NCBI GenBank assembly: GCA_030018905.1
Contig: JASEHJ010000008.1
Location: 1 to 35,056 of the forward strand
Length of the DNA stretch: 35,056 bases
Direction: 5' to 3'
From: a bacterium
GTDB lineage: Bacteria; Sysuimicrobiota; Sysuimicrobiia; Sysuimicrobiales; Humicultoraceae
Position numbers and translations under genes: made by a program. The notes under the pieces are model-generated. The model searched no databases. It saw only the letters and a list, made by a program, of their open reading frames with translations, and had not been told where the DNA came from. How positions within the stretch are numbered: the first letter of the stretch is position 1; each line of letters opens with the position of its first letter. Positions 28,335 to 35,056 of this stretch are shown one piece after another.

Positions 28335-28598
28335 TCAGGGCCGCAGCGTCACCAACAGATCCACGAGCAGGTTGCGCGCCAGATAGAGCAACAGGATGGC
28401 GACAATCGGTGACAGGTCGAGGCCTCCGGCTGCCGGTATCACCCTCCGGATCGGATCCAGGATGGGCGAGGTGAGATCGTGGACCACCTTGACCGCGGGA
28501 TGGCGGAGGGTCGGAAACCACGAGAGTGCCACGCGCACGAAGATGAGCGTGGTGATGATCTTGTAGGCGAGGTCGAGGAAGTAGATCAGCTCCAGCAT
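28335..28598 (-). CDS. YggT family membrane protein
   Basis: MLELIYFLDLAYKIITTLIFVRVALSWFP...VVHDLTSPILDPIRRVIPAAGGLDLSPIVAILLL. Confidence 0.93.
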   Translation of the reverse strand: MLELIYFLDLAYKIITTLIFVRVALSWFPTLRHPAVKVVHDLTSPILDPIRRVIPAAGGLDLSPIVAILLLYLARNLLVDLLVTLRP

Positions 28599-28646
28599 CC
28601 GTTTCTCCCGTGGCAGTCCTCTGGCGGTGCGCGGAGCCCGCTAATA

Positions 28647-28675
28647 ATTGTACCAAGCCGGTCTCAGGCAGGCAA
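28647..28675 (-). promoter_or_regulatory. SigA/Sig70-like promoter for the yggT/RAM-domain pair
   Basis: Minus strand TTGCCT-N17-TACAAT (28675-28647), about 50 nt upstream of the yggT ATG. Confidence 0.6.
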
Positions 28676-28802
28676 CGAACCCCTGGCGCCCGCGGGTTGC
28701 GGAACCCGGCATCCCGCACGATCTGTCGCGGGGGGATGGTCCGGCCGACCGTCGAAGATGGTCGCGAGAACGCCAAGACCTTTGGATAGCGAGGACCGGA
28801 CC

Positions 28803-30098
28803 ATGGCAGTCAAGCTCTATCACGCCGACGCGTACGCGCGCGAGTTCACCTCTGTGGTGACCGGCGTGCGCCGTATTGAAGGCAGTGTCACCGCGGTCGC
28901 GCTGGCGGAGACCGCGTTCTACCCGGCATCCGGCGGCCAGCCCGCGGACCAGGGTCACCTCGATGCCATGGAGGTAACGGACGTACTGGAAGAGGACGGT
29001 GAGATCTGGCACGCCGTTCGGCCGTCTGCGCAGGGGCAGGTTGAAGGCCTCTCCGTTGTCGGATCTCTCAACTGGGAGCGGCGCTTCGACCACATGCAGC
29101 AGCACACCGGCCAGCACATCCTCTCAGCGGCCTTTCTGCAGGCGCTGGGGGCGGAGACGCTGTCCGTGCACATCGGTACCACCTGCACACTGGACCTGGA
29201 TCTTCCCCTCCTCGACGATGAAGCCATTGCCCGCGTGGAGGACCTAGCCAACACGATCGTCACCGAGAACCGTGTGGTGGCCGCGCGCGAAGTTGAGATC
29301 GAAGAGGCGGTCGCGATGGGGCTGCGCCGTCCGCCCAGACAGGCCGGGCGGATACGGGTGGTGGAGGTGGCGGGTTTCGACCGCTCGGCCTGCGGCGGCA
29401 CGCACGTCCGCGCCACCGGCGAGGTCGGTGCCATCGCGCTCCTGCGCCACGAGCGGCACAAGGGTGGCGTACGGGTGGGCTTCCAGTGCGGGTGGCGCGC
29501 GCTGCGGCACTACAGGTGGGCGCGGAGGTTGATCACCTCGGTTGCCACCGAGCTCACCGTGGGCGAGCCCGACCTGGCCGGTGCGATCGGGCGTCTCTCG
29601 ATTCGCGCGCGGGAGGTGGAGCGGGAGCTGGAGACCGCCCGCCTGGAACTGCTGGGGTACGAGGCCCGGGCGCTCATCGCACGAGCGACCTCCGCGGGCA
29701 CACCCGCCTGTGGCCAGGGGCATTTGGTCGTCGCCGCGGCCTATGACGGTCGTGCCATCGAGGACCTGCGCGCACTGGCCCGCACCCTCACGGCGCAGGC
29801 GGACTGTGTTGCGATCCTGGCCACCGATCCGGGCCGGCGCGTGCTGGTGGCGCGCAGCCCGGCGGTGGCCGTGGATGCGGCCGCGGTGCTGCGGGAGACC
29901 GTTGCGGCGTTCGGCGGCCGGGGCGGCGGCAAGTCCGAGGCAGCAGAAGGCACGGCGCCCGAGGCGCCCTCGACCGCGGCCCTGGTGGACGCCGCGCGCC
30001 TGGCCCTGCTGCGCCAGGCAGCCTCGGGCGAGGGAGCCGGAGGCACGGCGCCGCCACGCCCACCCGCGGCCCCACACGAAGGTGGTGCTGTGGCATAA
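28803..30098 (+). CDS. alanyl-tRNA editing protein, AlaX-L type with DHHA1-like C-terminus
   Basis: AETAFYPASGGQPADQGHL, QQHTGQHILSAAF, ACGGTHVRATGEVG, C-terminal AFGGRGGGKSEAAEG; ATG at 28803. Confidence 0.9.
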   Translation: MAVKLYHADAYAREFTSVVTGVRRIEGSVTAVALAETAFYPASGGQPADQGHLDAMEVTDVLEEDGEIWHAVRPSAQGQVEGLSVVGSLNWERRFDHMQQHTGQHILSAAFLQALGAETLSVHIGTTCTLDLDLPLLDDEAIARVEDLANTIVTENRVVAAREVEIEEAVAMGLRRPPRQAGRIRVVEVAGFDRSACGGTHVRATGEVGAIALLRHERHKGGVRVGFQCGWRALRHYRWARRLITSVATELTVGEPDLAGAIGRLSIRAREVERELETARLELLGYEARALIARATSAGTPACGQGHLVVAAAYDGRAIEDLRALARTLTAQADCVAILATDPGRRVLVARSPAVAVDAAAVLRETVAAFGGRGGGKSEAAEGTAPEAPSTAALVDAARLALLRQAASGEGAGGTAPPRPPAAPHEGGAVA

Positions 30099-32252: not shown

Positions 32253-34073
32253 ATGCTGCCTTCCGACCGCCTGCGCGACAAGCTGATCGTGATGAACGGC
32301 AGGGGCACCCAGGTCTACCGGACCCTGGCCGGCGCCTACCGATTCGACCGGTTCGAGCTTCACCTGGACGCCATACACCCTGATCCCTCATCACCGTCCT
32401 GTTGGGCCCGCGTGCGCATGGACCAGGCCGAGGCCCAGGTCCCGCCTGCGCTATGGGAAAGCCCATCCGGCCGGTTGGCGGCGGAGGCCTTCCTGTCGCG
32501 CGCGGTGCACGAGGCCATAGGACACCATGTCCGCACCCGGTGGCAGGGGAAGGCAGCGCCCGTGGTGATCCATGCGGGCGGGGGGGAGATCCTGAGGCGC
32601 TCGTGCTGCACGGTCGGCGAGGAGTTCGTGGAGATCCGCCTTACGATTGGGCTCCCTGCCGAGGGACGCAAAGTGCTGGCCAAGATGGCACAAACGCTGC
32701 TCTTCGATGAGCTGCCCGCAGCGGTTCAGGCCGGCCTGGTGTGGGCGAACCTCGCCGCCGATGCCGGATTGCGCCACCGCGACGCGCTGGAAGACTACCT
32801 GGCCCTGCGGGAGGCCCTGGACGCGCTTGGGCTGGTAGCGTTCGTCGCCGACGGCTCGGTGTTGCCGAGGGAGGATGGACCGGGTGACCGACCGCTGCGT
32901 GGAGGTCGGGCCGTTGCCCTGCATGCTCCGGACGAACTGGCCGCTACGGTCACCCTGCCTCACCGTGGTGCGGTGCGCGGGCTGGGCATTCGCCGCGGCG
33001 TCACGGTGATCGCCGGAGGGACTTTCTCCGGGAAGTCCACCCTGCTGGCCGCGCTATCTGCCGGCGTGTATCCGCACGTCCCCGGGGATGGTCGCGAGCT
33101 TGTGGCCACGGTTCCGGACGCGGTGTGGATCCTCACCGAGCCCCTCAGGCGCGTCGAGCATGTGGACGTCAGCGCTTTTCTCCGGGGACTACCGCACCGT
33201 CCGGACGCGACCACGGTTTCGTTCGAACACGTGACAGGGACGGTCTCCATGGCCGTGGGAGTCGCGGAGGCCGTCGAGATCGGGTCCCGCATGCTGCTGT
33301 TCGATGAGGATGAGAGCACGGTTGCGTTCCTGGTACGGGATGCGGCGATGCAGCAGTTGGTCCCGGCGGAGCGCGACCCCGCGATCCCGCTTGTGGACCG
33401 CCTCCGGGCGCTGTGGGAAGTCCGTGGCGTCTCGTCGGTGATCGCCACCGGAAGTCTTGGGGAGTACCTCGACGTGGCGGATGAGGTAATCGTCATGGAA
33501 GGGTTTCAACCCCACGCGGCGACCGACCGTGCGCGCAGCATCGCTGCGGGATTCACCGGGCGTCGCACGTACATCAGCGGGGAGTTTGGCATGCCGATGC
33601 CGCGCTGTCCGCTGCCGCGGGGGTTTGGCGGGCTGCGGGGGCGCGGCCACCGAACCGAGCCGCGCGGCCATGCTGAGATCGGCATCGGGCGCGAAGCGAT
33701 CAGCACAGCAGCGCTCCGGCAGCTTGTGGGCGCGGGTCAGGCAAGTGCGGCCGGCGATGCGATCCTCTACGCACTGGCGAAGGGCTACGTGGACGGAAAC
33801 GCATCTGTGGCCGAGATCCTCGACCGCGTATTCGCGGATATCGAGGCGCACGGGCTGGGCGTGCTGGCAACTGAGGGGAGTCATGCCGGTGGCTACGCGC
33901 TGCCCAGGCGGCACGAGGTGGCGGCGGTGCTGAACCGGATGCGGGCCCTCCAGGTGCGAACGCGGCGGGTGATCCAAGAGGCGCCTCCCCCCGTTGCTTC
34001 CGAGGCAGATGAGGCAGATAAGGTTGAGCCGCCAGCAGGAGATCCGCCCCCGGCGGCGAATGAAACAGTTTAA
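32253..34073 (+). CDS. ABC-class ATPase of COG3044 type (MRB1590-like)
   Basis: P-loop GVTVIAGGTFSGKSTLLAAL, VWILTEPLRRVEHVDVSAFL, Walker B-like RMLLFDEDESTVAFLVRDAAMQQL, SVIATGSLGEYLDVADEVIVME; characteristic long N-terminal domain. Confidence 0.9.
   Translation: MLPSDRLRDKLIVMNGRGTQVYRTLAGAYRFDRFELHLDAIHPDPSSPSCWARVRMDQAEAQVPPALWESPSGRLAAEAFLSRAVHEAIGHHVRTRWQGKAAPVVIHAGGGEILRRSCCTVGEEFVEIRLTIGLPAEGRKVLAKMAQTLLFDELPAAVQAGLVWANLAADAGLRHRDALEDYLALREALDALGLVAFVADGSVLPREDGPGDRPLRGGRAVALHAPDELAATVTLPHRGAVRGLGIRRGVTVIAGGTFSGKSTLLAALSAGVYPHVPGDGRELVATVPDAVWILTEPLRRVEHVDVSAFLRGLPHRPDATTVSFEHVTGTVSMAVGVAEAVEIGSRMLLFDEDESTVAFLVRDAAMQQLVPAERDPAIPLVDRLRALWEVRGVSSVIATGSLGEYLDVADEVIVMEGFQPHAATDRARSIAAGFTGRRTYISGEFGMPMPRCPLPRGFGGLRGRGHRTEPRGHAEIGIGREAISTAALRQLVGAGQASAAGDAILYALAKGYVDGNASVAEILDRVFADIEAHGLGVLATEGSHAGGYALPRRHEVAAVLNRMRALQVRTRRVIQEAPPPVASEADEADKVEPPAGDPPPAANETV
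34037..34061 (+). promoter_or_regulatory. candidate SigH-like promoter for the T-box/trpB2 unit (exact AGGA-N17-GAAT)
   Basis: GCAGGAGAT-N11-GGCGAATGA at the 3' end of the COG3044 gene, about 20 nt before the T-box leader. Confidence 0.5.
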
Positions 34074-34080
34074 CCAGCCC

Positions 34081-34345
34081 GATGACCGGGACGAGTACGC
34101 GCCAGGCGGGCGCGCAGAGAGCTGCTAAGGTGGAAGGCAGCCGCCGCGCGGCGCGGAATGGACCCGTGAGGTGTGCGGTGAACGCGCGGGAGGCGCCGCA
34201 AGCGCAACCGCGTCACTAGTCGCACCGGTTGATTCGCCGTTAGCGGATCAGAGCGCTGCGGGTTCGCGCACAGCGATCCCCCGGAACTTGGGTGGTACCA
34301 CGGAGCCGGCCTCCGTCCCTCGACGGAGGCCGGCATTATTCTTCC
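34081..34345 (+). promoter_or_regulatory. T-box riboswitch leader, Trp specifier (UGG)
   Basis: Stem I with specifier loop GAA-UGG-A (UGG 34159-34161) closed by CGCGCC/GGCGCG; GGTGGAA-like distal loop; T-box AACTTGGGTGGTACCACG (34285-34302); antiterminator GGG-[UGGUACC]-ACGGAG-CCGGC-CTCCGT-CCC (34290-34319). Confidence 0.93.
34305..34334 (+). terminator. T-box intrinsic terminator
   Basis: Perfect 13-bp stem GCCGGCCTCCGTC-cctc-GACGGAGGCCGGC followed by ATTATTCTT; overlaps the antiterminator 3' arm. Confidence 0.85.
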
Positions 34346-34392
34346 CGTCGCGGCCTGGGGCCGGCGAGGGAAAACAACGAGGGGGTGTAGAG

Positions 34393-35056
34393 ATGGATTC
34401 CACCAAGATCTTGCTCGGCGAGGACGACGTGCCGAAGGCCTGGTACAACATCGCCGCGGACCTACCGGTGCCGCCGGCGGCGGTGCTCCACCCGGGGACC
34501 AGGCAGCCGATCGGCCCGGCAGATCTAGCGCCGTTGTTCCCGATGGAACTCATCATGCAGGAGGTCAGCACCGAGCGGGATATCGAGATCCCCAAACCGG
34601 TGCGCGACGTCTACCGCATGTGGCGGCCGACGCCTCTGTATCGGGCGCGGCGGCTGGAGGCGGCGCTCGACACGCCGGCCCGCATCTACTACAAGTACGA
34701 GGGCACCAGTCCGGCCGGTAGCCACAAGCCCAACACCGCGGTGGCGCAGGCCTTCTACAACAAGCAGGAGGGTGTGCGGCGGCTGGCCACCGAGACCGGC
34801 GCCGGCCAGTGGGGCAGCGCGCTGGCGCTGGCGTGTCGCATGTTCGGCCTCGACTGCACGGTGTACATGGTGCGCGTCTCCTACGACCAGAAGCCCTACC
34901 GCAAGCTGATGATGCAGACCTGGGGCGCGGATGTGCTCTCCAGCCCCACCGACCGCACCCATGCCGGCAGGGCGATCCTCGAGAAGACGCCGGATTCGCC
35001 CGGCAGCCTGGGCATCGCCATCAGCGAGGCGGTGGAAGACGCCGCGACCCATGACG
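34393..35056 (+). CDS. trpB: TrpB2-type tryptophan synthase beta chain (3' truncated by window)
   Basis: [50 protein letters not shown]..., [15 protein letters not shown] lysine motif [18 protein letters not shown]; extended N-terminus typical of TrpB2. Confidence 0.94.

Follow-up and report, generated by a model that had tools for sequence, protein, structure and literature searches.

A structured leader immediately upstream of a tryptophan synthase beta-type gene (trpB2), found in a 35,056-nucleotide stretch of a Sysuimicrobiota genome (the window, contig JASEHJ010000008.1), raises the question of which tRNA it would sense and what a TrpB2 protein controlled in this way would do for its host. 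The Rfam T-box model RF00230 aligns over its full length (model positions 1-219) to positions 34073-34323 of the forward strand with 76.3 bits and an E-value of 7.4e-17, in a search run in E-value mode because the score lies below the gathering score of 93; at the gathering threshold Rfam reports one tRNA only and no T-box in the window. Sub-cut-off scores are typical of this GC-rich genome, in which none of the 12 RF00230 matches reaches 93 and the best attains 89.9 bits. The full-length match bears out the T-box assigned by a first-pass annotation made from the sequence, which had placed the element at 34081-34345; the element stands, whereas its start has to be moved about 8 nucleotides upstream, giving a leader of 34073..34345 on the forward strand including the terminator tail, as defined by the RF00230 match and by its retention in congeners. 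A scan for promoter consensus sequences upstream of the leader found none.

The 3' half of the leader carries the anatomy expected of transcription attenuation. A GAGCG-Stem III-AA region (34251..34286), corresponding to the RRRNG-Stem III-AA motif (PMC7778990), precedes a predicted antiterminator at 34290..34319, in which the T-box bulge UGGUACC (34293-34299) is flanked by a GGG/CCC helix (34290-34292 with 34317-34319) and an ACGGAG/CUCCGU helix (34300-34305 with 34311-34316), all on the forward strand and recognized both in the sequence and in the RF00230 alignment. Over 7 nucleotides the 3' strand of this antiterminator also forms the 5' arm of a 13-bp intrinsic terminator at 34305..34334 (+), with arms GCCGGCCUCCGUC and GACGGAGGCCGGC closed by a CCUC loop and followed by the U-rich tail AUUAUUCUU (34335..34343). 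Both helices are intact and mutually exclusive, and each of the pieces described in the first-pass annotation, including the overlap of the two structures, was recovered. The terminator folds with -30.9 kcal/mol and a z-score of -7.35 against shuffled sequences. By comparison the minimum-energy fold of Stem I on its own does not stand out from shuffled sequences (z -0.64), such energies being uninformative in GC-rich RNA. As the terminator is this strongly non-random, and the leader is kept before trpB2 in congeners and in more distant bacteria, the element is beyond what chance would produce.

The identity of the tRNA depends on the register in which the specifier loop is read. This loop, GAA-UGG-A, was located at 34156..34162 (+) by the RF00230 alignment, a calibration of the register, and conservation, with the specifier UGG, denoting tryptophan, at 34159-34161. 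For the calibration, the conserved Stem I GAG served as the reference point, and the codon lying a set number of bases upstream of it was taken from 13 T-boxes found in the source genome and its congeners, preceding thrC, a serine-type aminotransferase gene, ilvE, valS, proC, hisS-aspS, pheS, proS, ileS, ilvB, thrS, a DAHP synthase gene and trpB2 (ileS, ilvB and thrS being named from their protein starts rather than from profile searches). In all 13 the amino acid read in this register agrees with the gene that follows, against 0-4 for shifts of up to four bases, with the rule having been derived from the same 13 T-boxes on which it was scored and some amino acids occurring twice. For the thrC T-box, GAC (Asp) in the -1 frame is a further plausible specifier, and this element could be an aspartate T-box. 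Variation in architecture was also seen among the proS T-boxes (L127, L225 and L234), which measure only 147-165 nucleotides and have a very short Stem I, with the CCC (Pro) specifier retained.

The source genome encodes one full tRNA-Trp(CCA) with a GCCA 3' end and thus G73 as its discriminator. Opposite this base the window T-box presents the U of UGGU, forming a G:U wobble, a weaker pair than that offered by the UGGC of the other three genomes of the genus. We considered this wobble as an anomaly and rejected it, because 46% of Trp T-boxes have U opposite G73 (PMC7778990). The proC (L135, contig C286) and thrC (L131, contig C148) T-boxes of the same genome fit their discriminators worse: both carry UGGC, and the variable C faces, without pairing, A73 of the expected tRNA-Pro or U73 of the expected tRNA-Thr, respectively. 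Additional tRNA-Trp sequences were encountered as a lone copy of the first 34 nucleotides of the gene, 97% identical, in the source genome (L252, contig C122, 26905-26938), and as a second, slightly different tRNA-Trp gene in the congener G003.

Downstream of the terminator a likely ribosome-binding site inferred from the sequence, GAGGGGGUG (34379..34387, +), precedes the trpB2 reading frame, of which 221 codons (34393..35056, +) are present before the contig ends. This part scores 372 bits against the NCBIfam model NF009057 (cut-off 366), and the full-length protein of a congener passes both NF009057 (739 bits) and TIGR01415 (643 bits) but falls far short of the canonical TrpB model TIGR00263 (147 bits, cut-off 392), in agreement with the TrpB2 type originally proposed for this gene. 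By sequence, the solved structures closest to the congener protein are 6hul, 4qys and 6hte, annotated as tryptophan synthase beta chain 1 or 2. No trp genes follow trpB2 in the congeners G002 or G003, where the next gene lies on the opposite strand. On the upstream side the leader abuts a gene for a conserved ABC-class P-loop ATPase, the stop codon of which (34073) touches the leader start; in G002 the same trpB2 leader is preceded by a different sequence. Elsewhere in the window (28479-30098) we noted a gene for a 539-residue AlaX-like protein. Its match to alanyl-tRNA synthetase is confined to the editing and DHHA1 part at the C-terminus of that enzyme, and about 110 additional residues precede the matching region.

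Leaders with GAA-UGG stand before trpB2 in each of the genus's four genomes (the source genome G000 together with G001, G002 and G003) and in seven other bacteria, namely G011, G014 and five genomes whose records are labelled Symbiobacterium, Chloroflexi, Bacillota and Dehalococcoidia (L021, L028, L033, L055 and L079). UGG is thereby conserved in 10 trpB2 leaders besides that of the window, which is itself nearly identical to the leaders of G002, where the tryptophan pathway is kept, and of G003.

The wider pathway context is the one unusual point of an otherwise ordinary switch. In searches covering trpA, trpC, trpD and canonical trpB, the first three genes were not found in the source genome (92% complete), G001 (96%) or G003 (95%), but G002 and the majority of other relatives have them. 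Likewise, no match to canonical trpB above the cut-off was obtained in the source genome, and G001 and G003 showed no second trpB-like match comparable in size to those of relatives. An assembly gap could explain such an absence in one genome, less easily in three. The earlier suggestion that TrpB2 is an orphan or salvage-type subunit is strengthened by these absences, and it may be the sole tryptophan-making enzyme of the source genome and of two of its three congeners. We also examined the T-box before trpB2 as a potential tracker of trp gene loss; this was rejected, as G002, G011 and G014 carry both the T-box and trp genes. A second UGG T-box was observed before a DAHP synthase gene in G000 (L128, contig C107, 569-899, minus strand), G001 and G002 (further loci L213 and L236). 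It is followed in G002 by trpD, trpC, trpB and trpA on the same strand, and is kept in G000 and G001 although those two genomes yielded no trpA, trpC, trpD or canonical trpB.

Taken together, these observations make it very probable that the leader is a class I, tRNA-Trp-specific transcriptional T-box controlling TrpB2, with tRNA binding, read-through and enzyme activity all predicted from sequence. Stem I would hold tRNA-Trp through pairing of UGG with the CCA anticodon. When this tRNA is uncharged, its 3' GCCA would pair with UGGU of the antiterminator bulge, blocking the terminator and allowing transcription of trpB2; when charged, it would leave the 13-bp terminator to halt transcription. 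The enzyme would thus be made when tRNA-Trp runs uncharged, most likely synthesizing tryptophan from indole and serine, and in the three genomes with no trpA, trpC, trpD or canonical trpB found it would act as an indole-salvage enzyme. A role in both tryptophan synthesis and indole salvage has been ascribed to the TrpB2 of T. kodakarensis (Hiyama 2014, as cited in PMC11085991). For the genus as a whole we tentatively propose, at slightly under even confidence, that some species lost their trp genes while keeping TrpB2 and its Trp T-box, leaving TrpB2 as the only tryptophan-making enzyme, fed by indole salvage and induced directly by uncharged tRNA-Trp. Were this true, the way TrpB2 is regulated could reveal its physiological role, which is a matter of debate.

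Several alternative readings have to be set against this one. That the hairpin at 34305-34334 merely terminates the upstream ATPase gene is suggested by the end of that gene at 34073, exactly where the leader begins; yet 230 nucleotides of structured T-box separate the two, and G002 has another upstream region with an unchanged leader, making this reading exceedingly improbable. Scarcely more credible is a genuine T-box read in another register (AUG, GGA or AAU) and hence sensing another tRNA. The T-box database TBDB does allow the frame of some T-boxes to be shifted by -1 or +1 (PMC7778990), but the 13 of 13 fit of the UGG register, against at most 4 for any other, and the retention of UGG as the codon in all aligned trpB2 leaders favor the tryptophan assignment of the first-pass annotation over the AAU or GGA specifiers that it had named as damaging to its case.

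It is also conceivable that the T-box is a decayed, non-functional remnant of lost trp genes, given that these genes were not found in the source genome and that the window has U where congener T-boxes have C. Nevertheless, every motif and both alternative helices are intact, and the near-identity of the leader in G003 and in G002, with its retained pathway, leaves this very improbable. The alternative to which we give most weight, though still an unlikely one, accepts T-box control and assigns TrpB2 a function other than making tryptophan, for example serine deamination, which was once proposed for TrpB2 (reported in PMC1854888). The TrpB2_o proteins tested showed poor serine-deaminase activity (PMC1854888), one TrpB2 is reported to act in indole salvage (PMC11085991), and the repeated Trp T-box control across different bacteria points to tryptophan supply.

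The survey of T-boxes uncovered a further arrangement that is more novel and stranger than the Trp T-box of trpB2. In the source genome the leader of a leucine (CUC) T-box (L133, contig C177, 17835-18177, minus strand), situated ahead of ilvE and a leuS-like gene, contains a tRNA-Ala(GGC) gene in the same orientation, the T-box and tRNA matches overlapping. Pattern searches of 43 Sysuimicrobiota genomes found the tRNA pattern in 38, and reading of each locus showed that in 22 of these, spread over five families, tRNA-Ala(GGC) is flanked by Stem I and the antiterminator of a Leu T-box, with one of the 22 loci truncated at the end of its contig; in the remaining genomes with the pattern it stands alone. 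None of the 22 genomes matches the tRNA pattern more than once. The nested gene occupies the place of Stem III, mostly before ilvE and in G014 before leuS (further loci: L210, L222, L231, L240, L241, L254-L266, L275, L276, L279-L283 and L296). In most cases it is enclosed by a helix of 6-10 bp whose sequences differ while complementarity is kept by covariation, as in GACGGACGC/GCGTCCGTC and GATAGCGT/ACGCTATC; helix length averages 6.8, as opposed to 5.4 when the partners are shuffled, and 6.8 was not attained in any of 500 shuffles. Minimum-energy folds placed a clear tRNA cloverleaf atop the enclosing helix in two of four cases tried. Possibly the tRNA-Ala caps and stabilises Stem III of the Leu T-box, and the T-box terminator might double as that of the tRNA gene, which would then be made with or without ilvE. 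A search of open-access papers found no description of a tRNA gene nested in the Stem III of a T-box.

A T-box before a trpB-like gene was already published in 2008, and the arrangement at our locus is itself not new. Wels et al. (2008, PMC2494555) described T-boxes ahead of trpE and of a trpB-like gene in Dehalococcoides, and the likeness extends to a Trp-related T-box directly before the trpB-like gene with a separate one on the trp operon; Dehalococcoides, however, belongs to another phylum (Chloroflexi), and the passages on these T-boxes describe no loss of trp genes. What seems new is the pathway context, namely the retention of TrpB2 and its T-box where trpA, trpC, trpD and canonical trpB are not found. 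The main paper on the phylum Sysuimicrobiota makes no mention of riboswitches, T-boxes or tryptophan (PMC11604079), and our analysis adds for this phylum a clear Trp T-box with trpB2; the way the gene is controlled is evidence that TrpB2 contributes to supplying tryptophan, including where other trp genes are missing. The trpXYZ leader of Streptococcus suis shares the UGG specifier and the terminator/antiterminator switch, demonstrated there by mutating the specifier and the T-box, but it controls a tryptophan uptake system rather than a biosynthetic enzyme (PMC9382623). Pyrococcus horikoshii offers the converse resemblance, in that this archaeon retains trpB2_o having lost its other trp genes, but without T-box control (PMC1854888).
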